Of a stretch of DNA of 64,000 nt, positions 17,593 to 58,066 are shown piece after piece. Source of the stretch: Opitutaceae bacterium (GTDB taxonomy: Bacteria; Verrucomicrobiota; Verrucomicrobiia; Opitutales; Opitutaceae). Below the pieces are notes generated by a model. It made no database searches and was not told the origin of the DNA. It saw only the letters and a program-made list of their open reading frames with translations. The stretch is taken from the NCBI GenBank assembly GCA_023269585.1, contig JAHFTC010000004.1, forward strand, positions 27,100 through 91,099, read 5' to 3'. The position numbers were made by a program, and so were the translations under genes. Position 1 is the first letter of the stretch. Every line of letters begins with the position of its first letter.

Positions 17593-17669
17593 GGCGGTGT
17601 GCCGGTGACGGACGAGCGGATGCTGGGGGGCGCTCGCGCGGGAGGCGAGGCTGGAGCGGCGACGACGCG

Positions 17670-18365
17670 TTACTTCCGTGCCACGTGGAGGGCGACGATG
17701 CCGAAGGTCATCGGGCGCGCCTGCACGGCGGCGAAACCGGCGCGAAGAATCTCGGCCGACATCTCCGGGCGGGCGGGGAACTGCGCGATCGAGCCGCCGA
17801 GGTATTCGTAGGCGCCCTTGTCGCCCGTGAGGGCGGAGGCGAACCACGGCAGGATGCAGCGCAGGTAGAAATAGTAGAGCGGCGCGAACCAACGGTACGG
17901 CTGCGAGAACTCGAGGACGAAGAGCGAGCCGCCGGGCCGGAGCACGCGGCGCATTTCACCTAACGCCTTGTGGCGGTCAGCGACGTTGCGCAGGCCGAAG
18001 GAGATTGTGAGCACGTCGAACGCGGCGTCGGGCAGCGGCAAGGCCATGGCGTCGCCTTGGCGGAATTCGATCTTCGCGTAACGGGGCGAGCGCGCCTTTT
18101 TCGCCACCGCTTCGTCGAGCATGGGCTGGCAGAAATCCATGCCGGTGATCCGCACGGCCTCGGGCAAGCCGCGGGCGAGCGCGAAGGCGACATCGCCGCT
18201 CCCGGTGGCGAGATCGAGCACAGCCTGCGGCTGGCAACGCGCCACGGCGCGGCGTAGGCGCCAACGCCACCACACGTCGGTGCCGCCGCTCAGGAGGCGG
18301 TTGGCGAGATCGTAACGGCGGGCGATGCGGCCGAACATCGACTGGACTGCGGCGGGATCGGGCAC
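17670..18365 (-). CDS. ubiE: demethylmenaquinone/ubiquinone methyltransferase UbiE/MenG (GTG start proposed)
   Basis: MFGRIARRYDLANRLLSGGTDVWWR, VLDLATGSGDVAF, GMDFCQPML, ISFGLRNVADRHKALGEMRRVLRPGG. The annotated longer N-terminus is translated repeat DNA. Confidence 0.9.
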   Translation of the reverse strand: MPDPAAVQSMFGRIARRYDLANRLLSGGTDVWWRWRLRRAVARCQPQAVLDLATGSGDVAFALARGLPEAVRITGMDFCQPMLDEAVAKKARSPRYAKIEFRQGDAMALPLPDAAFDVLTISFGLRNVADRHKALGEMRRVLRPGGSLFVLEFSQPYRWFAPLYYFYLRCILPWFASALTGDKGAYEYLGGSIAQFPARPEMSAEILRAGFAAVQARPMTFGIVALHVARK

Positions 18366-18369
18366 GGGT

Positions 18370-18540
18370 GATTTTCGATTGTGGATTGCCGATTTGCGAT
18401 TGGGCGGACGGCGGGAAATTGCGGAATGCGGAATGCGGATAGCGGAATGCGGATTGCGGAGTGCGGAGTGGGCGGACGGTGGGAAACTGCGGAAGGGGGA
18501 TAGCGGAATGCGGATTGCGGATTGCGGAGTGCGGATTGGC
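18370..18540 (+). repeat. three consecutive heptamer arrays (GATTNNN-type), locus A
   Basis: Phased 7-mers: gattttc gattgtg gattgcc gatttgc gattgg; aattgcg gaatgcg gaatgcg gatagcg gaatgcg gattgcg gagtgcg gagtgg; aactgcg gaagggg gatagcg gaatgcg gattgcg gattgcg gagtgcg gattgg; the first two are followed by gcggacggYggga. Confidence 0.95.
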
Positions 18541-18578
18541 GTGGGCAGAGCAGACGCAAACCGTCGAGGGAAGGGCGA

Positions 18579-18687
18579 GCGCGGAATTGAGAGCGGTGAG
18601 GGACTGTGGCGTGAGGTTCCATCGCTGGAATCTTCAGCGGTGCTTCGCTGCGCGGAATTGAGAGCGGTGAGGAACTGTGGCGTGAGG
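18579..18687. repeat. 38-bp direct repeat, two copies 71 bp apart
   Basis: gcgcggaattgagagcggtgagggactgtggcgtgagg (18579-18616) and gcgcggaattgagagcggtgaggaactgtggcgtgagg (18650-18687), one mismatch. Confidence 0.9.
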
Positions 18688-18802
18688 GGCGCTCGGTGGA
18701 GCGTTGACCGCCGTGGCGTGGTCCTTCCCTGGGCGTCGGCGAAGTGCGCATCGTCGCGTTTGCGTCTGTGGGGCATCGGCCCGCGCGACGGGGCTCCCTC
18801 AA

Positions 18803-18827
18803 TCATGTCAACCAATAGTTGACATGA
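18803..18827. repeat. inverted repeat tcatgtcaac-caata-gttgacatga
   Basis: Perfect 10-bp arms, 5-nt loop; possible operator. Confidence 0.7.
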
Positions 18828-18905
18828 CGTTGCGCGTTCCGGGCGAAAGGGAAAGAGGGGCCCTGAGTGGCGATTCCGGTTGCTCCGGCCGGCGAACGAA
18901 CGGCA

Positions 18906-18949
18906 AAGACGCAAAACCGTGTCGCGATCGCGACACGGTTTTGCGTCTT
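18906..18949. repeat. perfect 44-bp palindrome
   Basis: aagacgcaaaaccgtgtcgcgatcgcgacacggttttgcgtctt is identical to its reverse complement. Confidence 0.95.
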
Positions 18950-19133
18950 CGGTGCCCGGTGATGGTGACGCCAGGCCGCAGATCAGCCGTGTCGACACCG
19001 CGGATGGTCGCTCGTCGAGGGACGAAAACCGGGCCGTCGCTCGCGTGATCCGGGCCGCTCGGCGGCGCGGGTTCCGCCTCGGTAGTCTGGTACGCGCCGC
19101 TCGTCCGCGTGTCGTTCGATGACTGAACACAGA

Positions 19134-20747
<1,614 letters not shown>

Positions 20748-20849
20748 GGCGGGAGAGTTTCGGCTTTCGGGTTGACGCAAAATGACGTCCAGCAATAGCT
20801 TAACGCACGTTTTTCACCGAAAGAATTTTCGCAACAGGAGATACGCACC

Positions 20850-21200
20850 ATGTCGAACAACCTCACCAAGCGCGAGATCGTTCTGGAAATCTATCAGAAG
20901 ACCGGCTTCCCGCAGAAGGAAGTGCAGCAGTCTGTCCAGATGGCCCTCGATATCATCCAGGACGCGCTCGCTTCGGGCCGTAATGTCGAGCTGCGCAACT
21001 TCGGCGTGCTCGAGGTCCAGGTGCGCAAGGCCCGCATCGGCCGCAATCCCAACAAGCCCGAGACGGAGGTCGTGATCCCGACCCGCGCCGTGGTGAAGTT
21101 CAAGTCGGGCAAGATTTTGAAGGCCAAGCTCAAGAAGCTCGAACTGAGCAAGGTGGACAAGCGCGGCATCGTGCCGCCGCCGTCCGCGCCGACCGTCTGA
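20850..21200 (+). CDS. HU/IHF family DNA-binding protein
   Basis: NLTKREIVLEIYQKTGFPQKEVQQSVQMALDIIQDALASGRNVELRNFGVLEVQVRKARIGRNPNKPETEVVIPTRAVVKFKSGK. Confidence 0.95.
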   Translation: MSNNLTKREIVLEIYQKTGFPQKEVQQSVQMALDIIQDALASGRNVELRNFGVLEVQVRKARIGRNPNKPETEVVIPTRAVVKFKSGKILKAKLKKLELSKVDKRGIVPPPSAPTV

Positions 21201-21225
21201 TCGTTGTCAGCCGCTCCGTTCCCAC

Positions 21226-22557
21226 ATGGCCCAGTTCCAGACCCTGCCGGGGTTTCGGGAGTTTTATCCCGAAGAAACCGCCCGGCGTAACTTCCTTTTT
21301 CGTCTTTGGCGGCAAGCCGCCATCGCCTCGAATTTTCTCGAGTACGACGGCCCCGTTTTGGAGCCGCTCGAGCTCTACAAGGCCAAGTCGGGCGAGGAGA
21401 TCGAGCAGCAGCTTTTCTGCTTCACCGACAAGGGAGGGCGCGACGTTTCGCTCCGCCCGGAGATGACTCCCACGCTCTGCCGCATGGTCGGTGAGCGCGC
21501 GGGCGCGATGCGGCGCCCGATCAAGTGGTTCAACATCGGCGAGCATTACCGCTACGAGCGCGCGCAGAAGGGCCGACTCCGCGCTTTCTTCCAGTTCAAC
21601 GCCGATCTGCTCGGCGAAGCCGGCCCCGAGGCCGAGGTTGAACTCATCGCGTTGCTGATCGCGTGCGTTTCCGCCACCGGGCTGACCGAGCGGGATTTCT
21701 TCATCCGCCTCAGCGACCGCAACCTCTGGTTCTTCTACCTGCAGGCCGTCGGCTACACCGAGGCGCAGGTGCCCGATGTGCTCGGGACGATCGATCGCCT
21801 CGAGAAGCAGGGCGATGACGCCTTCAAGTTCTTCGAGGAGAAACACGGTCCGCTCGCCGCCGAGAAACGCGCCGAGATCGTGTCGTTCACCAAGATCAAT
21901 TCGCTCGCCGCGCTCGAGGAACGCCTCGCGCCCGTGACCGCCGCCGGCGGTCCGGCGGCCGAGGCGCTGAATGCGCGCCTGACCGATTGGCGCACGTTGC
22001 TGGGCGGACTCGAGGCGATGGGCTACGGGGCGTTTATCCAAGTCGATCTCGGCGTGGTGCGCGGGCTCGCGTACTACACCGGATTCGTGTTCGAAGCCTT
22101 CGACCGCAGCGGGGAGTTCCGCGCGATCGCCGGCGGTGGACGCTACAACAATCTCGTCAAGAAGCTCGGTGGTCCCGATCTGCCCGCGGCTGGTTTCGCC
22201 ATCGGTGATGTCGTCATCAGTGAGATGCTGAAGTCGAAGAATCTGCTGCCGGAGATCGTGTCGGTGCCGGACATCTTCTGCATCATTGGCGGCCCGGCCG
22301 AGCGAAAGGCCGCGTTGGCCGACATCCGTGAACTGCGCGCCGCCGGCTTCCGGGTCGAGTACCCGCTCAAGGACACCGGTTTTGGCAAGCAGTTCAAGCA
22401 GGCCGACCAGCATAAGGCCCGCCTCGCGATCATCTACGGCGGCGACGAACTCGCCCGCGGTGCGGTGAAGATGAAGCTGCTCGCCGACGCCACCGAGCGT
22501 GAGATTCGCCGCGACCACCTGCTGCAGGCGGTGGGCGAGTTGCTCGGGAAGGCGTGA
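21226..22557 (+). CDS. hisS: histidine--tRNA ligase
   Basis: PGFREFYPEE, SLRPEMTPTLCRM, RGLAYYTGFVFEAF, GGGRYNNLVKKLGG, anticodon-binding C-terminal domain. Confidence 0.85.
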   Translation: MAQFQTLPGFREFYPEETARRNFLFRLWRQAAIASNFLEYDGPVLEPLELYKAKSGEEIEQQLFCFTDKGGRDVSLRPEMTPTLCRMVGERAGAMRRPIKWFNIGEHYRYERAQKGRLRAFFQFNADLLGEAGPEAEVELIALLIACVSATGLTERDFFIRLSDRNLWFFYLQAVGYTEAQVPDVLGTIDRLEKQGDDAFKFFEEKHGPLAAEKRAEIVSFTKINSLAALEERLAPVTAAGGPAAEALNARLTDWRTLLGGLEAMGYGAFIQVDLGVVRGLAYYTGFVFEAFDRSGEFRAIAGGGRYNNLVKKLGGPDLPAAGFAIGDVVISEMLKSKNLLPEIVSVPDIFCIIGGPAERKAALADIRELRAAGFRVEYPLKDTGFGKQFKQADQHKARLAIIYGGDELARGAVKMKLLADATEREIRRDHLLQAVGELLGKA

Positions 22558-22594
22558 GCACCCCGCGGTAGTCGCTGCATAGGCCCTTCGATCC

Positions 22595-23419
22595 GTGGAC
22601 GCCGCTGCACCCATCACGCCGAAGAAGCCCAGTATGTTTCGGTCGGTGGCGCGCATCGCGCTTGTTCTCGCGGTGCTCTACGCGCTCGTCTGCTGGTGGG
22701 CGCGGTGGATTTCGACCTCGATGCTCTTTCCGGCGCCGCTGCCGACCTACGGCGAAAAGCTGCCCGGGTTGGTGATGCTCCCGGGGCCGGAGGGGCGGAA
22801 ATTCGCCGCGGTCTATCGCGCGAATCCACAGGCCAAACACCTGGTCCTCTATTTTCACGGCAATGGCGAGGACCTGGGCTCGGCGACCGAGCAGATCGAG
22901 GAGCGGGTGCGGCACGGTTTCGCTGTCCTCGCGGTGGATTATCCCGGGTATGGCCTGACCGGCGGCAAGCCGAGCGAAGCGGGCTTCTACGCCAGCGCCG
23001 ACGCCGCCTATCGCCACGCGACCGAGGTGCTCGGTTGGCCGAAGGAGCGCATCATCGTGAACGGCTTTTCCCTCGGCGGCGCCGGAGCGCTGTGGCTCGC
23101 GTCGCGCGAGAAGGTGGGCGGGCTGGTTTTGCAGAATGCGTTCATGAGCGCCTATCGCGTGATGACCGGAGCGCCGGTTGTGCTGGGCGATCGGATGCCG
23201 AATCTACGCCGAATGCGGGCGGTGCGTTGCCCCGTGCTGGTGATCCACGGTTGCGAGGACGGGGTGATTGCGTGGGAGCACGGCCGCCGGCTGTTCGAGG
23301 CGGCACCTGAGCCGAAGCGCTCGTTCTGGGTGTCGAACGGCAACCACAACAACCTCCCGGAGGTCGCGGGAGAACGTTACTGGCGCGAGCTGGCTGATTT
23401 CGCCGCGACGCTGCCCTGA
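22595..23419 (+). CDS. alpha/beta hydrolase
   Basis: LYFHGNGEDLG, VNGFSLGGAGALWLA (GxSxG), Asp/His near C-terminus. Confidence 0.85.
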   Translation: MDAAAPITPKKPSMFRSVARIALVLAVLYALVCWWARWISTSMLFPAPLPTYGEKLPGLVMLPGPEGRKFAAVYRANPQAKHLVLYFHGNGEDLGSATEQIEERVRHGFAVLAVDYPGYGLTGGKPSEAGFYASADAAYRHATEVLGWPKERIIVNGFSLGGAGALWLASREKVGGLVLQNAFMSAYRVMTGAPVVLGDRMPNLRRMRAVRCPVLVIHGCEDGVIAWEHGRRLFEAAPEPKRSFWVSNGNHNNLPEVAGERYWRELADFAATLP

Positions 23420-23557
23420 GGGCGGCGTCGAGCTGATCCGCGGCGCGACCGCCGTTCGTCCATTGCCCTCGCCGGTCGTCACGGTGGGCGTCCATCGGCC
23501 CGTGGACCTTTGACACTCTGCCAGCGAACGGGCATGCACGACCCAACACACCGCGCC

Positions 23558-24955
23558 ATGTCGCCGACCGATCCTTCCCTCCGTCCCTCGTCACCCCCGA
23601 AGAAGAGCCGCAAGAAGCTCTATTGGATCATCGGAGGCGCCGTATTGTTCGTGTTGTTGTGCGTCGCCGCCGCGATCAAGGGGCGCGGCGAGCAGGCCGT
23701 CATGGTCACGACCGAAAAGGCCGTCGCCAAGACGCTCACGCAGCTGGTTTCCGCGACCGGCCGCGTGCAACCCGAGATCGAGGTGAAGATCTCCGGCGAG
23801 GTCGCCGGCGAGATCACCGACCTGCCGATCGTCGAGGGCCAGTTGGTGAAGCAGGGCGACCTGCTGGTGCGTATCAAGCCGGACTACTACAAGGCGCAGG
23901 TCGAGCAGGACCACGCCATGGTCGCCGCCGCCAAGGCCGCGGTGCTCCAGAGCGAGGCGCAGGCGGAGAAGGCCGGACTCGACTTCACCCAGGTCGACAC
24001 GCTGCGCCAGCGTGGCCTCATGTCGGACACTGAATTCAACGCCAGCCGTTCGGCGTTGCGGGTGGCGACGGCCAACGTCGAGAGCGCGCGGGCCAATCTC
24101 ATGCGGGCCGAGAGCGCGCTGCGCCAGGCCGAGGACTACCTGGCGAAGACCACCATCGTCGCCCCGCGCGACGGCACGATCAGCGTGCTCAACAGCAAGC
24201 TCGGCGAGCGCGTCGTCGCCACGGGACAGTTCACCGGCACGGAGATCCTCCGCGTGGCCGACCTCGAGAAGATGGAGGTGCGCGTGAATGTGAACGAGAA
24301 CGACGTGGTCAACGTGAAGATCGGCGACAAGGCCCGCGTGCGCGTCGACGCCTTCCAGGGCCGTGAATTCCTCGGCACCGTCCGCGAGATCGCCAACACC
24401 GCGCGCACCGCCGGCGCCGCGACGCAGGACGAGGTGACGAATTTCGAGGTGCGCATCAGCGTGCGTGAACCCGGGGTGCAACTGCGGCCCGGCATGAGCG
24501 CCACCGCCGACATCATGACCAAGACGGTGGAGAACGCCGTGGCCGTGCCGATCCAGAGTGTGACGACGCGCGTGAAGGAATCCAACCAGACGCAGGAGCA
24601 GCTCCAGGCCGAGCGCGAGAAGGAGAAGGCCGAACGTCAGGGCGAGGGCGCGGCGATCGCCGTGAGCGACGCCCAACGGCGCGAGCAGGAACGGCTCGAT
24701 CGCGAGCGGCTGCAGCGGGTGGTGTTCGTGCTCGAGGGCACGAAGGTCCGCCAGCAGACGGTGGATACCGGGATCCTTGACCACACCCACATCCAGATCG
24801 TCACCGGCCTGAAGGAAGGCGACGAGGTCGTGTCCGGCAGCTACGGCGCGATCACCCGCGAGCTGAAGGACGGGTCGAAGATCAAGATCCAGCCGCCGGC
24901 CAAGAAGACAGGGGCGGCGGACGCTGCGAAGACCGCGACCACGGAGAAGAAATGA
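23558..24955 (+). CDS. MacA/HlyD-like efflux periplasmic adaptor
   Basis: N-terminal [25 protein letters not shown] biotinyl-lipoyl-like domain, coiled coil, beta-barrel; operon with ABC genes. Confidence 0.88.
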
Positions 24956-25692
24956 GCACGCCCGCTCCCGCTCCCACCAGCGACCGCACGGTGCGACCGC
25001 CGGGGAACCTGGTGATCGACATCCGAGGCATCACCAAGCTCTACCGGATGGGCGACTCCACGATCCATGCGCTGCGCGGCGTGAACCTCCAGATCCGCCG
25101 CAACGAGTACATCGCCATCATGGGCCCGTCCGGCAGCGGCAAATCCACGATGATGAATGTTGTCGGCTGTCTCGATACGCCGACCGCGGGCGACTACTTT
25201 TTCGGCGGGCACAACGTGGCGCACATGGACGACGACGAGCTGGCCGACATCCGCAACCGCGAGATCGGCTTCGTCTTCCAGACCTTCAACCTGCTCCCGC
25301 GCAGCGATGCGTTGCGCAACGTCGAGCTGCCGTTGATCTACGCCGGCGTGCCGGCCGGCGAGCGCCGGGAGCGCGCCGCCGAGGTGCTGCGCAATGTGGG
25401 CCTGGGCGACCGGATGCACCACAAGCCCAACGAGCTTTCGGGAGGCCAGCGCCAACGCGTGGCGATCGCGCGCGCGCTCGTGAACAATCCCTCAATCATC
25501 CTGGCCGACGAACCGACCGGTAACCTCGATTCCCGCACGGGCGACGAGATCATGCAGCTCCTCGAAATTCTCTACGCCCGTGGCAACACGATCATCCTCG
25601 TCACCCACGAGGAGGACATCGCCCGCCACGCCCGCCGCATCGTGCGCCTGCGCGACGGCGTGGTGGAAAGCGACCGGGCGGCGGCGGGCTGA
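24952..25692 (+). CDS. MacB/LolD-type ABC transporter ATP-binding protein
   Basis: [18 protein letters not shown] Walker [16 protein letters not shown] signature, [12 protein letters not shown]. Confidence 0.95.
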
Positions 25693-25724
25693 TTTCCAAT
25701 TTTGGATTGCCGATTTGCGACTGG
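25691..25724 (+). repeat. left terminal inverted repeat (heptamer array)
   Basis: gatttcc aattttg gattgcc gatttgc gactgg. Confidence 0.9.
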
Positions 25725-25735
25725 AGGCAACCGCC

Positions 25736-26113
25736 ATGAACGAGACCGAATTCAAAGCCAGGACGAAGGAGTTCGCGTTGCGAGTGCTCAAACTTGTCGA
25801 CGCTTTGCCGCGTAAGCGTAGTGCGGATGTGATCGGCGGCCAACTCGGGCGCGCCGGTACCTCGGTCGGGGCGAACTATCGCGCGGCGTGTCGAGCGCGT
25901 TCCAAGGCCGAGTTCGCGGCGAAACTGGGCATCGCCGAGGAAGAGGCCGATGAATCGGCGTGGTGGCTCGAGCTGATCGGCGACCACGGGCTTCTGTCCA
26001 CCGAGCGGATCACCGATCTCCACGACGAGGCGGTCGAGATCACCAGGATGTTGGCATCGTCGCGTATCACCGTCCGCGCCAATCTTGCGGCCGAAAAGCA
26101 GTCGCTCCGCTGA
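25736..26113 (+). CDS. four helix bundle protein (23S rRNA IVS/S23-like family)
   Basis: MNETEFKARTKEFALRVLKLVDALPRKRSADVIGGQLGRAGTSVGANYRAACRARSKAEFAAKLGIAEEEADESAWWLELI...: the Q[LI]xRAGTSVGANYREA...FxxKLxIAxxEAxExxYWLEL signature of this family. Confidence 0.9.
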   Translation: MNETEFKARTKEFALRVLKLVDALPRKRSADVIGGQLGRAGTSVGANYRAACRARSKAEFAAKLGIAEEEADESAWWLELIGDHGLLSTERITDLHDEAVEITRMLASSRITVRANLAAEKQSLR

Positions 26114-26122
26114 GCGCCTGCG

Positions 26123-26156
26123 CCAATCGCAAATCGGCAATCCAAAATCGCAAATC
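26123..26156 (-). repeat. right terminal inverted repeat (heptamer array)
   Basis: On the minus strand: gatttgc gattttg gattgcc gatttgc gattgg. Confidence 0.9.
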
Positions 26157-27407
26157 GTGTCCCGTCTTCTTTTCGAGTTCACCGAGGCCATCCGGATCGC
26201 GGCGCAGCAGATCCGGGCGAACCGCATGCGCTCGTTCCTCACGGCGCTGGGCGTGATCATCGGCATCGTCGCGATCACCCTCATGGGTAGCGCGATCGGC
26301 GGCATCGACCGCGGCGTCAACGACAGCCTGGCGGTCGTGGGCGACGACATCCTCTACGTCACCAAATGGCCGTGGCGCGACATCGAGGACTGGTGGAATT
26401 TCCACAACCGCCCGAAGATCCGCACCGAGTACGCCGACCAGATCAACGCCTACGTCGCCGCGCACCCGGAAGTGCCGATCAAGCTCGCCGTGCCGGCCGA
26501 CGAGATGTTCACCAACGTCTATCGGGCCGACTACGCGGTGAACGCCGTCTACACGCTGGGCACCACCGCCGAGTTCCCGCGCATCGGCCGCGGCGACATG
26601 CTCGAGGGGCGTTTCTTCAACGAGACCGAGTCGCGCAGCGGGCGCAACGTGGTCGTGATCGGCTTCGACATCGCCGACGCGCTCTTCCCCGGCACGAGCC
26701 CGGTGGGCCAGACGGTGCGCCTCCGCGACCAGCAGTTCACGGTTGTCGGCGTGGCGGCGAAGCAGGGGACGTTCCTCGGGATGTTCAGCTGGGACACGAT
26801 GGTGATCATCCCGCTGCCGGCCTTCCGGAAGATGTTCATGCGCGCCACCGAGGGCGCGCAGATCCGCGTGCAGATCGACCGCACCCGCGCCGACGAGGCG
26901 CGGCTGGAACTGCGCGGGATCATGCGGCGGGTGCGCGGGGTGTCACCGGAGATGCCCGACAATTTCGAGATCAACACCCAGGACAGCATCAAGAAGCAGC
27001 TCGATCCGATCCGCAACGGCTTGGCGCTGGCCGGCTTCGTCATCACCGGGCTGGCGCTCTTTGTCGGCGCGATCGGCATCATGAACATCACCTACGTGAG
27101 CGTGAAGGAGCGCACGCGGGAGATCGGCACGCGCAAGGCGCTCGGGGCGCGGCGGCGCACGATCCTGCTGCAGTTCCTGATCGAAGCCGTGTCGATCAGC
27201 AGTGTGGGCGGCGCCATCGGGATCGCGTTGGCCGGCAGCCTCGCCGCGACCGTGGCGGCGCTGGCGCCCTCGCTGCCGGTTGTTTTCCCGCTGGGGTTGG
27301 TGCTCTTCGCGTTCGGCACCTCGACGTTGGTGGGCATCGTCGCCGGATTCTTCCCGGCGTTCATGGCCAGCCGTCTCGATCCGGTGGAGGCGCTGCGCTA
27401 TGAGTGA
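26157..27407 (+). CDS. MacB/FtsX-type ABC transporter permease (GTG start proposed)
   Basis: LLFEFTEAIRIAAQQIRANRMRSFLTALGVIIGIVAI...; REIGTRKALGARRRTILLQFLIEA. Upstream ORF sequence QSQIGNPKSQI is translated repeat. Confidence 0.9.
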   Translation: MSRLLFEFTEAIRIAAQQIRANRMRSFLTALGVIIGIVAITLMGSAIGGIDRGVNDSLAVVGDDILYVTKWPWRDIEDWWNFHNRPKIRTEYADQINAYVAAHPEVPIKLAVPADEMFTNVYRADYAVNAVYTLGTTAEFPRIGRGDMLEGRFFNETESRSGRNVVVIGFDIADALFPGTSPVGQTVRLRDQQFTVVGVAAKQGTFLGMFSWDTMVIIPLPAFRKMFMRATEGAQIRVQIDRTRADEARLELRGIMRRVRGVSPEMPDNFEINTQDSIKKQLDPIRNGLALAGFVITGLALFVGAIGIMNITYVSVKERTREIGTRKALGARRRTILLQFLIEAVSISSVGGAIGIALAGSLAATVAALAPSLPVVFPLGLVLFAFGTSTLVGIVAGFFPAFMASRLDPVEALRYE

Positions 27408-28659
27408 GTCCCGCAAACGACAGCTCGGTCTGCCCCTGACGGAGATCCTCCGCATGGCCTGGACGTCGGTGTGCGCGCACAAGCTGCGCTCGGCGCTCAC
27501 GATGCTCGGCATCGCCATCGGCGTGTTCACGGTGATCGGGGCGATGACGATCATCACCGCGCTCCAGCGCTCGATCGAGGAGCAGCTCAACGTGCTCGGC
27601 TCGACCAGCTTCCAGGTGAGCAAGTACCCGGCGATCCACAGCCACGGGCCGGGCAATCCGTACGCGAACCGGCGCGACATCAACATCGCGCAGGCGCAAC
27701 GGGCGAAGGAGTTGCTGGCCGACACCGGCGCCACGATCAGCCTCCAGGTGAGCGCCTGGGGGAAACAGGTGTTCTTCGAGGACAAGAAGACCAACCCCAA
27801 CAACCGCCTGATCGGGACCGACGAGGCGTTCATCACCGGTCGGTCCTACAATGTCGCCCTCGGCCGCAACGTCACGCGCGAGGACGTCGAGTTCGGGCGG
27901 GCGGTCTGCGTCATCGGATCCGATACGCGCGAGCGGGTGATCCCGGTGGGCGATCCGCTCGGCGCGGTCATCCGCCTCGACGGCCAGGGCTACCGCGTCG
28001 TGGGCGTGCTGGAGCGCAAGGGCGAGCTCTTCGGCCAGAGCCAGGACAACCTCGTGGTGATTCCGATCACCCGGTTTCTGCAGGTGTACGGCCGCGAACG
28101 CCGCTCGATCGGCGTCAACGTCCAGGCGCGGACGCAGGCCGAGATGAACGAGACGATGGATCGCACCTACGGGGCGATGCGCGTGGTGCGCGGGTTGCAG
28201 CCCGAGGACCCGAACGATTTCGAGATCTTCTCCAACGACACGCTTGTGCAGGCCTTCGACAAGATCGCGAACGTCGTCGGCGCCGGGGCGTTCGTCATCA
28301 GCTTCATCGCGTTGGTGGCCGCGGGCGTGGGCATCATGAACATCATGCTCGTGAGCGTGACGGAGCGCACCAAGGAGATCGGCATCCGCAAGTCGCTCGG
28401 CGCGCAGCGACGGGCGATCCTGCGGCAGTTCCTGATCGAGGCGGTGGTCATCGCGCAATGCGGCGGGCTGATCGGCATCGTGTTCGGCGTGGGGGGCGGA
28501 AACCTCGCCGCGAAGGCGATGGAGGCGGACGCGGTTTTCCCGGTCATGTGGACGTTGATCGGCTTCGGATTCTGTTCCGCCATCGGCATCATCTTTGGCT
28601 TCTATCCCGCGTGGAAAGCCGCGCGCCTCGACCCGATCGAAGCGCTGCGGTTCGAGTGA
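27400..28659 (+). CDS. MacB/FtsX-type ABC transporter permease (second)
   Basis: AWTSVCAHKLRSALTMLGIAIGVFTVIG; KEIGIRKSLGAQRRAILRQFLIEA; overlaps the preceding stop (ATGAGTGA). Confidence 0.92.
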   Translation: MSESRKRQLGLPLTEILRMAWTSVCAHKLRSALTMLGIAIGVFTVIGAMTIITALQRSIEEQLNVLGSTSFQVSKYPAIHSHGPGNPYANRRDINIAQAQRAKELLADTGATISLQVSAWGKQVFFEDKKTNPNNRLIGTDEAFITGRSYNVALGRNVTREDVEFGRAVCVIGSDTRERVIPVGDPLGAVIRLDGQGYRVVGVLERKGELFGQSQDNLVVIPITRFLQVYGRERRSIGVNVQARTQAEMNETMDRTYGAMRVVRGLQPEDPNDFEIFSNDTLVQAFDKIANVVGAGAFVISFIALVAAGVGIMNIMLVSVTERTKEIGIRKSLGAQRRAILRQFLIEAVVIAQCGGLIGIVFGVGGGNLAAKAMEADAVFPVMWTLIGFGFCSAIGIIFGFYPAWKAARLDPIEALRFE

Positions 28660-37506: not shown

Positions 37507-37599
37507 AATTGCGGATTGCGGAATGCGGATTGCGGATTGGCCGGACGACTAGCTGCCGGACTTCACTTGAGACTTGAGCCTTGGCACTTGGAACTTGGC
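37507..37599 (+). repeat. paired heptamer arrays, locus C
   Basis: aattgcg gattgcg gaatgcg gattgcg gattgg (37507-37540), then acttgag acttgag ccttggc acttgga acttggc (37565-37599). Confidence 0.93.
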
Positions 37600-39863: not shown

Positions 39864-39882
39864 CGGTGACCGGTGACGGAGC

Positions 39883-39917
39883 GGTGGACGGTGGACAGTC
39901 GACGGTGGACGGAGGAG
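39883..39917 (+). repeat. heptamer array, GGTGGAC flavour
   Basis: ggtggac ggtggac agtcgac ggtggac ggaggag between permease and ATPase genes. Confidence 0.88.
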
Positions 39918-39973
39918 GGGGCTTGGGGGACGGCGCGGCGGGAAGGATTCGGGCGGTGGCCGCGGAGTCTGAC

Positions 39974-42060: not shown

Positions 42061-42062
42061 GC

Positions 42063-42090
42063 GGTGGACGGTGGTCGGTGGACAGTGGAC
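42063..42090 (+). repeat. heptamer array, GGTGGAC flavour
   Basis: ggtggac ggtggtc ggtggac agtggac, directly upstream of birA. Confidence 0.88.
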
Positions 42091-51070: not shown

Positions 51071-52579
51071 TCACACTGCATGCAGGGCGCTCTTGCTGAC
51101 GGCGAGGGCGGCTTCTTTCACAGCTTCGCTCATCGTGGGATGGGCGTGGATCGTGCGGGCGAGATCTTCGGCGCTGCCGCCGTAGCTCATGTGGGCAACG
51201 ACTTCGCTGATGAGCTCGCCGGCGCCGCGGCCGAGAATCTGCGCGCCGAGCAGGCGGTCGGTCTTGGCGTCGGCGATGAGCTTCACGAAGCCGTCCGCGG
51301 CGTCGGACGCGAGGGCGCGGCCGTTGGCGGCGAAGTTGAATTTTCCGACCTTCACCTCAATGCCCTTGGCCTTGGCGCCATCCTCGCCGAGACCGACGCC
51401 GGCGACTTCCGGATCGGTGTAGACGATGGCGGGCACGACGTCCCAATCGATGTGGCCGGCTTTGCCCGCGATCCATTCGGCGACGGCGACGCCATCCTCC
51501 TCGGCCTTGTGGGCTAGCATTGGCCCGGCCACGACGTCGCCGATGGCCCAGATGCCGGCGGCGCTGGTGCGGAGATGTCCGTCGACCTTGATGCGCTTCT
51601 TGTCGTCGAGTTCGACGCCGGCGGCGGCGAGGTTGAGGCCGTCGGTGAACGGCCGGCGGCCGACGGCGACGAGGACCTTGTCGGCGGGGAATTCGAGTGG
51701 CTTGCCATCCCGTTCGGCGGTGAGGATCGCGGCCGATGCGATTGCGGATTGCGGATTGCGGACTGCGGATTGGTCGGAGGAGGAGGCCGAGCTTTGGGAT
51801 TTGGAATCTGGAGTTTGGAATTTCACTCCCGTGACTTTCGCGCCGGTCTCGATCTTCAGGCCTTGCTTCTGGAGGAGGCGGGTGAAGTTGCGGACGATGT
51901 CGTCGTCGTAGGCGGCGACGATCTTCGGGAGAAACTCGAGCACGGTGACTTCGGCGCCGAGGCGGGCCCAGACGGAGCCGAGTTCGAGGCCGATGGCGCC
52001 GCCGCCGACCACGACGAGCTTTTTGGGCACGGCGGGGAAGGAGATGGCATCGTCGGAAGAGACGACGGTCTGGCCGTCGAATTTCAGGAAGGGCAATTCG
52101 ACTGGTGCGGAGCCGGTCGCGATGACGATGTGGGTCGCCGACAAGTCGGCGACGATTGCGGATTGCGGATCGCGGATTGCGGATTGTTCGGACGAAGTCG
52201 CGGTCACGCGCACAGTCTTCGGGCCGGTGAAGGCCGCCGTGCCGGTGAAGACGGTGATCTTGCGCGCCTTGGCGAGTTGGGCGATGCCGCCGGTGAGCTT
52301 GCCGACGACCGTATCCTTTTTCTTGAGCAACGCGGCGACGTCGATCTCGACGGAGCCGAGTTTGATGCCGCTCTCGGCCGCGTGGTGTTTGGCCCACGCG
52401 AAATGCTCGGTCGCGTTGAGCAACGCTTTCGACGGGATGCAGCCGACGTTGAGGCAGGTGCCGCCGAGGGCGGCGCGCTTGTCGACGAGTGCGACCTTCA
52501 GACCGAGTTGGGCGGCGCGGAACGCGCACACGTAGCCGCCGGGGCCGGCACCGAGGATGAGGACGTCGAAGGAGGACAT
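51071..52579 (-). CDS. lpdA: dihydrolipoyl dehydrogenase
   Basis: LILGAGPGGYVCAFRAAQLG, GGTCLNVGCIPSKALL, VVVGGGAIGLELGSVWARLG, HAHPTMSEAVKEAA. Contains two in-frame heptamer-array insertions. Confidence 0.95.
   Translation of the reverse strand: MSSFDVLILGAGPGGYVCAFRAAQLGLKVALVDKRAALGGTCLNVGCIPSKALLNATEHFAWAKHHAAESGIKLGSVEIDVAALLKKKDTVVGKLTGGIAQLAKARKITVFTGTAAFTGPKTVRVTATSSEQSAIRDPQSAIVADLSATHIVIATGSAPVELPFLKFDGQTVVSSDDAISFPAVPKKLVVVGGGAIGLELGSVWARLGAEVTVLEFLPKIVAAYDDDIVRNFTRLLQKQGLKIETGAKVTGVKFQTPDSKSQSSASSSDQSAVRNPQSAIASAAILTAERDGKPLEFPADKVLVAVGRRPFTDGLNLAAAGVELDDKKRIKVDGHLRTSAAGIWAIGDVVAGPMLAHKAEEDGVAVAEWIAGKAGHIDWDVVPAIVYTDPEVAGVGLGEDGAKAKGIEVKVGKFNFAANGRALASDAADGFVKLIADAKTDRLLGAQILGRGAGELISEVVAHMSYGGSAEDLARTIHAHPTMSEAVKEAALAVSKSALHAV
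51740..51820 (+). repeat. paired heptamer arrays inside lpdA, locus D
   Basis: gattgcg gattgcg gattgcg gactgcg gattgg (51740-51773), then tttggga tttggaa tctggag tttggaa (51793-51820); encodes FQTPDSKSQSSASSSDQSAVRNPQSAI. Confidence 0.93.
52154..52188 (+). repeat. heptamer array inside lpdA, locus E
   Basis: gattgcg gattgcg gatcgcg gattgcg gattgtt; encodes [12 protein letters not shown]. Confidence 0.93.
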
Positions 52580-52592
52580 GGGAGGAAGAAGT

Positions 52593-52620
52593 GAGTAGCG
52601 AGTAGCAGGTAGCGAGTAGG
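52593..52620 (+). repeat. heptamer array, GAGTAGC flavour, upstream of lpdA
   Basis: gagtagc gagtagc aggtagc gagtagg. Confidence 0.88.
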
Positions 52621-52717: not shown

Positions 52718-53989
52718 CTAGACGCCCAGCAGGAGGCGGGCGGGATCTTCGATGGCCTGTTTGATCTTCACGAGGAAGGTCACGGCTTCCTTGCCGTCGA
52801 CGAGGCGGTGATCGTAGCTGAGCGCCAGGTACATCATGGGGCGGATGACGACCTGGCCGTTGAGGGCGATCGGGCGGTCGTTGATGGCGTGCATGCCGAG
52901 GATGCCGCACTGCGGGGGATTGAGGATCGGCGTGGAGAGCAACGAACCGAAGGTGCCGCCGTTGGTGATCGTGAAGACGCCTCCGGTGAGATCGTCGAGG
53001 GCGATCTTGCCCTCGCGGGCCTTCACCGCGTACGCGGCGATGTCCTTTTCGATCTCGGCGAGACTCTTCGTGTCGCAGTCGCGGAGCACGGGGACCATCA
53101 GTCCGCGATCGGTGGAGACAGCGACGCCGACGTCGAAGAAGCTGTTCTGGACAATAGTGTCCCCGTCGAGGCTGGCGTTGACGGCGGGGACTTCGCGCAG
53201 CGCGTGCACGGCGGCCTTCACGAAGAGCGACATGAAACCGAGCTTCACGCCGTGGCGCTTGGTGAAGTCGTCCTGGTAGCGGGCGCGGAGGTCGCGCACG
53301 GCGGACATGTCCACCTCGTTGAACGTGGTGAGCATGGCGGTCTGGTTCTTCACCTGGACGAGGCGCTCGGCGATCTTGGCGCGCAAGGGAGTCATCTTGC
53401 GACGCGTCTGGCGGGCCGAGGATTGCGGATCGCGGATTGCGGATTGCGGATTGGACGGCGCGATCTCCGATTTTGGATTTTCGATCTTCGATTGGGCGGA
53501 CGCGGGCGCGGCGGTGGGGAGCGGAGCAGGAGCCGGTACGGCCGGCTTCTCGGCGGCGGCGAGCATGTCGCCCTTGGTGACGCGGCCGGCTTTGCCGGTG
53601 CCGGGGACGGTGGCGGGATCGATCTTGGTTTCCTCGGCGAGGCGGCGGACGGCTGGTGAAACCGGAGATGGGAGACCGGAGACCGGAGAGACGGAAGTCG
53701 GAACGGAGGTCGGCGGAGCGGCGGGAGTTTCCGGTTTCCGGTCTCCGCTTTCCGGTTTCGCGTCGATGGTGGCGACGACGGCGCCGATCTTCACCTCAGT
53801 GCCTTCGGCGATGGTGAGCGTGATCACGCCGTCGGCTTCGGCGGTGCCTTCGGAGGTGATCTTGTCGGTCTCCAACTCGAAGAGCGCCTGGCCTTTCTTC
53901 ACGGTGGCGCCGTTGGCGACGTGCCATTTCGCGAGGATGCCGGAGGCGATGGATTCACCGAGGGGCGGGATTTTGACTGGGAGAGACAT
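52718..53989 (-). CDS. sucB: 2-oxoglutarate dehydrogenase E2, dihydrolipoyl succinyltransferase
   Basis: Lipoyl domain [21 protein letters not shown]3-binding domain [28 protein letters not shown], catalytic [28 protein letters not shown]...[14 protein letters not shown]. Confidence 0.95.
53421..53496 (+). repeat. paired heptamer arrays inside sucB, locus F
   Basis: gattgcg gatcgcg gattgcg gattgcg gattgg (53421-53454) and gatctcc gattttg gattttc gatcttc gattgg (53462-53495). Confidence 0.93.
53658..53761. repeat. inverted pair of heptamer arrays inside the sucB linker
   Basis: gaaaccggagatgggagaccggagaccgg (53658-53686) matches the reverse complement of 53731-53759 at 25/29; right array gtttccg gtttccg gtctccg ctttccg gtttcgc. 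Confidence 0.88.
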
Positions 53990-54062: not shown

Positions 54063-54276
54063 ACCGCTAATGGACGCTAATCGACGCTAATGCGGAGGGG
54101 AACAGGCGGAGAGTTCGGAGTGATGAACCACTAATGCACACTAATGGACACTAATTCGGAAGGGCGGAGGCGGCGGATGAGGGGACCGCTAATGGACGCT
54201 GATCGACGCTAATTCGGAAGGAGTCGGAAACTCGGAGGAGGGAACCACTAAGGCACACTAATGAACACTAATTCGG
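54063..54276 (+). repeat. four period-10 arrays (CRCTAATGGA)3, spaced about 60 bp
   Basis: Units begin at 54063, 54127, 54185 and 54244: ACCRCTAATGNACRCTRATNGACRCTAATNCGG. Confidence 0.93.
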
Positions 54277-57859: not shown

Positions 57860-57869
57860 CCGGTGGGGC

Positions 57870-57904
57870 GGTGGACGGTGGACTGTGGACGGTGGCCGGT
57901 TGAC
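57870..57904 (+). repeat. heptamer array, GGTGGAC flavour
   Basis: ggtggac ggtggac tgtggac ggtggcc ggttgac just after the SUI1 gene. Confidence 0.88.
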
Positions 57905-58066
57905 GGAGGGCGGGGCCGGCTGAGCGTCACACACTCCGCAGGGCAGTCGGCTGGGGGCGTGCCGGTGGTCTTCCGGATTCTCCCGTCTGGAGGGGAGAGG
58001 GAAATCGGCAACCGGTAAACGGAGACGAAAGACGGAAGCGAGGAAGCTTCGATGTGTGCAACCGCC

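Follow-up and report, generated by a model that had tools for sequence, protein, structure and literature searches.

Genes of the 23S rRNA intervening-sequence protein (IVP) family (PF05635) commonly stand between two inverted arms of about five heptads each, and one IVP gene together with its two arms constitutes the full element. Among approximately 190 PF05635 loci from more than 12 phyla, roughly 60% were bracketed by inverted tandem 7-mer (sometimes 8-mer) arrays, and about 40% were without clear arms on both sides. The repeat unit is common to both arms of an element, differs from one element to another and follows the IVP lineage. The DNA analysed here (the window) is a stretch of 64,000 nucleotides from an Opitutaceae bacterium, and contains one such element as well as a copy of its terminal arm beside a ubiE-type gene. 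With a probability of roughly 0.6, the sequence at 18370-18403 derives as a gene-less copy from the terminal arm of a family of small elements, in which an IVP pentamer would read the arms and gene-less copies would spread in trans.

The IVP element of the window (25691-26156) occupies the whole gap between the stop codon of an ABC ATPase and the GTG start of a permease, as the neighbouring ORFs were read (Table 1). PF05635 is the sole gene between its arms, and no Y1 (HUH) transposase was found there. The gene product scored 69.3 bits against PF05635 (cut-off 33.8) and 87.7 bits against TIGR02436 (cut-off 24), and its AlphaFold model (pLDDT 97) matched 2rld, 2gsc and the retroelement protein Avd in a Foldseek search. 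In the RNA fold of the element both arms pair with each other (z = -5.6). The dN/dS of IVPs was about 0.1-0.3 where dS was measurable, many comparisons being near saturation, which indicates that the protein is kept by selection. To our knowledge, the IVP family has no catalytic domain.

The GTG start of ubiE was placed from orthologues, which begin with (A/G)TG-CCN-GAY. The arm copy next to it (+) matches the right arm of the element (26123-26156, -) at 32 of 34 positions and in the same heptamer phase, which confirmed the original prediction; a search of the window with this 34-mer at ≤3 mismatches returned the right arm (2 mismatches) as the one further match, and 100 shuffles of the window gave none. 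The separation, predicted as 7 kb, amounts to 7.7 kb. The copy had also been described as solitary, which is true only in part, since the 34-mer opens an array of ~170 bp (18370-18539) that adjoins the ubiE start codon and continues inward at 18404-18539. A partner arm was not recognisable at the ubiE site. At the same position before ubiE, a sister species carries four CAATCCG-type heptads, unlike the GATTnnn arm, and other genera carry different short repeats, or none. Rfam revealed no known structured RNA near the 34-mer copy and no rRNA within 17600-27500, and PADLOC gave no match to a defence system. The ubiE copy is best read as a solo arm of the IVP element family, now a putative leader of ubiE, and as a gene-less (MITE/REPIN-like) derivative of IVP elements. 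Between ubiE and a hslU/clpX-like gene lies a perfect 40-bp palindrome (gacgcaaaaccgtgtcgcgatcgcgacacggttttgcgtc, 18909-18948), possibly a terminator.

Table 1. Heptad arms, arrays and associated genes in the window (positions count from its first nucleotide).
Feature	Position	Strand	Remark
ubiE-type methyltransferase gene	17670-18365	-	start GTG 18365-18363
Five-heptad arm copy (34-mer)	18370-18403	+	reads inward, away from ubiE; tip 4 nt from start codon
Adjoining heptamer array, GCGGAAT/GCGGATT type	18404-18539	+	includes a 68-bp tandem duplication
Left arm of IVP element	25691-25724	+	overlaps final bases of ABC ATPase stop codon (25690-25692)
IVP gene (PF05635/TIGR02436)	25736-26113	+	125 aa, four-helix bundle
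Right, inverted arm of IVP element	26123-26156	-	ends directly at permease GTG start (26157)
Gene-less array, ATTGCGG type	37508-37539	+	32 nt
Gene-less array, ACTTGAG/ACTTGGA type	37565-37598	+	34 nt
Gene-less array, CGGTGGA type	39882-39928	+	
Gene-less array, CGGTGGA type	42062-42090	+	29 nt
Gene-less array, GATTGCG type	51740-51772	+	33 nt
Gene-less array, GATTGCG type	52154-52186	+	33 nt
Gene-less array, GAGTAGC type	52587-52619	+	33 nt; unit common to relatives' IVP elements L061, L169, L183, L184
Gene-less array, GGATTGC type	53420-53453	+	34 nt
Gene-less inverted heptad hairpin, GAGACCG/GAAACCG type	53664-53759		arms of IVP element L012
Gene-less array, CGGTGGA type	57866-57913	+	

The 34-mer was then counted at ≤3 mismatches throughout the draft genome (216 contigs, 4.47 Mb). 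The exact 34-mer occurred at 11 places and its reversed pattern at none. The family consensus (GATTTTC-GATTTTG-GATTGCC-GATTTGC-GATTGG) occurred at 21 places, and a permuted order of these five heptamers was absent from all 116 genomes searched. The conserved order of the variant heptamers means that the copies are homologous and not products of low complexity; the count came out as originally anticipated, far above that of the controls. Two further genomes of the same genus contained 6 and 38 copies of the consensus. Outside the genus, it was absent from eighteen other genera of the family that were searched, with one copy each in G004 and G111. These counts mark the 34-mer as an ordered repeat that is dispersed and essentially of genus level. 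Chance low complexity was ruled out by the permuted-heptamer and reversed-pattern controls. That the arrays arose convergently by slippage, with no element behind them, is scarcely credible: bacteria often have heptamer arrays, with variable numbers of copies (PMC4692102), but the same controls contradict this origin for the 34-mer, arms pair in inverted orientation around IVP genes, and self-similar segments of the window are in clear excess at a lag of 7 alone (11 segments, against 2 at lag 10 and none at lags 5, 6, 8, 9 and 11 or in shuffles). The only other tandem period in excess in the window belongs to a 10-mer array (CACTAATGCA-like) at 54065-54276.

Most 34-mer copies adjoin genes. 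The outer tip lay between -3 and 14 nt from the start or stop codon of a long ORF in 17 of the 21 copies, and at 30 nt in one more. Several of the 21 form inverted pairs that enclose no IVP gene (spacers of 27-127 nt), and such pairs occupy stop-to-start gaps. At L004, L123 and L125 the first base of the arm is altered (GATTTTC to CATTTTC), and the arm may supply the start codon of the neighbouring gene (CAT being ATG in antisense). At L448 (G002:C225:15000-15955) a 34-mer hairpin unit was found tandemly amplified with its flanks, at a spacing of about 90 to 215 bp.

The original prediction had tied the dispersed arrays to the element rather than to chance. This applies to the 34-mer copies, whose sequence is that of the arms around the resident IVP gene. 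It does not apply in this form to the other arrays of the window, as those of the ATTGCGG, CGGTGGA, GAGTAGC and GAGACCG types are not copies of the 34-mer; at least for the GAGACCG/GAAACCG family, a match was found to the arms of L012, a different IVP element in this genome. The six typical IVP genes of the genome have inverted heptad-like arms whose unit differs from gene to gene, and three further partial PF05635 matches are without such arms. A single element family throughout the genome was ruled out, since every IVP element has its own unit.

Across the order, 75 loci were compared, those of this genome included. Arrays of equal period were present on both sides in 51 of them (35 heptads, 15 octads and one of six). 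The 5' unit agreed with the reverse complement of the 3' unit at 5.66 of 7 positions for heptads (3.56 in permutations) and at 6.47 of 8 for octads (4.45), values reached in 0 of 2000 permutations in either case. Among 80 loci from GTDB genomes, which span about a dozen phyla, 5' flanks had strong heptad or octad arrays in 52 of 79 cases and 3' flanks in 42 of 75, whereas control stretches 370-600 bp away had arrays of any period in 3 of 75 and 3 of 72 cases. Both arms were present at 52 of the GTDB loci and were inverted at 46 of these. In the IVP subfamily of these loci, AGT was common to many units across phyla. Arms were likewise present at many IVP loci of viral contigs. The length of the heptad arms showed a sharp peak at 30-33 nt, corresponding to four periods plus a core, i.e., five cores. 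Octad arms, considered as to whether copy number (five) or length is fixed, had a median of 37 nt, which fits five cores although the interval is wide (31.5-42.5, n = 30). The inward-reading strand of the arms is G-rich and C-poor.

The unit was shared by 3-4% of element pairs with IVP identity below 50%, by 40% of pairs at 50-70% and by 86% above. This correlation reflects common descent in part, as the GTTGAAA type occupies one locus in five genera (read as a branched-chain amino-acid transporter operon). Elements of the AGTAGCG type with 69-84% identical IVPs were found at three unrelated loci. At a shared locus downstream of a gene read as trpB, 77% identical IVPs had the same arms and a 52% identical IVP had different ones. 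The non-orthologous loci support mobility of arms and IVP as one unit.

The gap between ATPase and permease was compared among relatives. Intact IVP elements were present in G000, G001, G004 and G021, gene-less hairpins with other units in G007, G016, G018 and G023, and a short array in G006; the gap was short and without arms in G005, G008, G009, G011, G019 and G024. Two of the gene-less hairpins, L211 (G016) and L197 (G007), have a short open frame between the arms (25 aa in G016). In G002, the arms surround an IVP that lacks its middle, and the whole is tandemly duplicated. Internal deletion of a full element, which defines MITEs, was thus seen at this one site and not for the dispersed copies. 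The decayed IVP suggests descent from full element to solo copy, which for the ubiE copy itself is a conjecture, a sister species having a different short heptad array at that position. In related genera, the IVP also occupies other gaps of the HlyD-ATPase-permease-permease operon (window 23510-28659; L193-L206), namely the one that separates the two permeases (G003, G011, G023) and the one that follows the second (G005). At two orthologous sites compared in three species, all were occupied, both arms had switched type jointly between sister species, and no target-site duplication was readable. This joint switching at fixed sites suggests replacement or conversion between copies.

The position of the arrays at stop and start codons would also be expected if they were host regulatory or mRNA-structure elements at gene boundaries, forming leader or trailer hairpins for translation, termination or RNase III processing, with the IVP as a recruited RNA-binding regulator or a passenger and dispersal by ordinary recombination. 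The G-rich heptamers of Xanthomonas and Nostoc lie ≤50 bp from gene ends and are mostly transcribed (PMC4692102), and the TAACTGA heptamers of Beggiatoaceae are directly 5' of start codons (PMC4679880). The switching of both arms in concert at fixed sites is in line with such a role, as is the uncoupling of array density from IVP number. A simple proportionality of the two was not seen among the genomes compared: G006 has no PF05635 gene by profile search, yet about 40 heptad arrays per Mb (200-kb sample), and G014 and G060 have IVPs and no heptad arrays in samples of 200 and 140 kb. From arrays without IVP on the one hand and IVPs without sampled arrays on the other, it follows that mobilisation of arrays by the IVP is something we infer. 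We nevertheless consider a host regulatory origin unlikely, because IVP and arms occur together at unrelated loci and the ordered 34-mers are genus-specific. Moreover, empty gaps of 15-40 bp are common among relatives, so arrays are dispensable there. Given how short these gaps are, an insertion that survives in one has to lie against both codons; codon proximity follows from this and special codon targeting is needless.

In the preferred reading, that of a mobile element family with gene-less copies, the arms would be putative recognition sites of the IVP. A Xanthomonas IVP homologue is a homopentamer (PMC4990558), and structure 2rld has five chains. The IVP homopentamer probably binds one strand of an arm, as RNA or single-stranded DNA, with one subunit per heptad; a single strand is proposed because the 7-nt pitch misfits the B-DNA repeat, and the five cores would equal the five subunits. 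Gene-less copies might then spread in trans as MITE/REPIN-like derivatives, to which the uncoupled array densities and the joint switching of arms at fixed sites are counter-evidence, and their spread would use a nuclease, reverse transcriptase or recombination pathway. Alternatively, an unrelated enzyme (RAYT/HUH transposase, reverse transcriptase or other) could move elements and arrays via their hairpins, the IVP being accessory only, as Avd is in diversity-generating retroelements (DGRs). The lack of a catalytic domain in the IVP, the REPIN-like inverted hairpins (PMC3116915), the structural homologue Avd, which works with a reverse transcriptase (PMC12875486), and again the array densities are consistent with this. 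It appears quite improbable, since the arm unit tracks the IVP lineage even within one locus (same arms at 77% identity, different arms with the diverged IVP) and a transposase or reverse transcriptase gene is absent between the arms of the elements examined.

IVP genes on plasmids extend the pattern. The Azospirillum plasmid IVP L468 lies inside a bacterial LSU (23S) rRNA (Rfam RF02541, 884 bits) and has inverted heptad arms, so that this 23S intervening sequence is built like the IVP elements between protein genes. IVPs of Nostoc plasmids have the arms GGGAGTA and GGGTGTA, and Nostoc is a genus already known for heptamer repeats (PMC4692102). Cyanobacterial plasmid IVPs (L463-L467) were found in tight operon gaps (cas6/cas4, nrdB/nrdA and a secretion ABC operon), two of them opposite in strand to the operon. 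Tentatively, IVP elements could represent one cross-phylum minimal mobile class, whose sole protein would be a nuclease-free pentameric ring reading five heptads on a single strand, with 23S intervening sequences and many dispersed heptamers as its insertions and gene-less offspring and a heptad code for each lineage.

The presence of heptad arms around IVP genes is the principal result. The 23S intervening sequences, the heptamer repeats and the REPIN-like logic are each known separately. In a literature search that did not extend to subscription papers and bioRxiv, no report connected IVP/S23 with dispersed heptamer arrays, which is weak evidence of absence. Two old puzzles, the role of the S23/IVP protein of rRNA intervening sequences and the origin of intergenic heptamer repeats, appear to be connected. 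The heptad code (unit sequence, five copies, inverted arms) provides testable candidate binding sites for a family whose sole annotation is "four helix bundle protein". It also offers a marker to find and date IVP elements in any genome.

The published heptamer repeats of Xanthomonas and Nostoc (PMC4692102) and the TAACTGA repeats (PMC4679880) resemble the arrays of the window in their 7-nt period and their intergenic location near starts (antisense) and stops (sense). The 70-75 convergent inverted pairs per Xanthomonas genome (PMC4692102) correspond to the inverted arms. The G-quadruplex motif of the published repeats (PMC4692102) is absent from the GATTTTC units, and both reports leave IVP/S23 unmentioned and describe no mobile-element link or propose other roles. 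The REPIN/RAYT system (PMC3116915) likewise comprises extragenic inverted doublets that form hairpins; its singlets are viewed as remnants, the same repeats flank a resident gene, and gene and repeat co-evolve. The 34-mer family includes inverted, dispersed and extragenic doublets in the same way, with no second arm found for the ubiE copy. In contrast, RAYT is a Y1 transposase, a catalytic function unknown for the IVP, and REPs are palindromic whereas the IVP arms are tandem heptads. The DGR accessory protein Avd has the fold of the window IVP (TM about 0.7), although the latter gave no match to the Avd model NF033474, and reverse transcriptase and template repeat of DGRs are absent at IVP elements. 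The window element differs from the 23S intervening sequences in its site between protein genes, with no rRNA in 17600-27500, and in its dispersed gene-less relatives. It resembles those of Coxiella and Leptospira that contain an S23/IVP ORF (PMC4990558) in that the IVP gene is placed in the loop between terminal inverted repeats; the Coxiella sequence has a 28-bp terminal stem and GACAGAT heptamers upstream of its S23 ORF (PMC4990558), and mobility of 23S intervening sequences is an old proposal.
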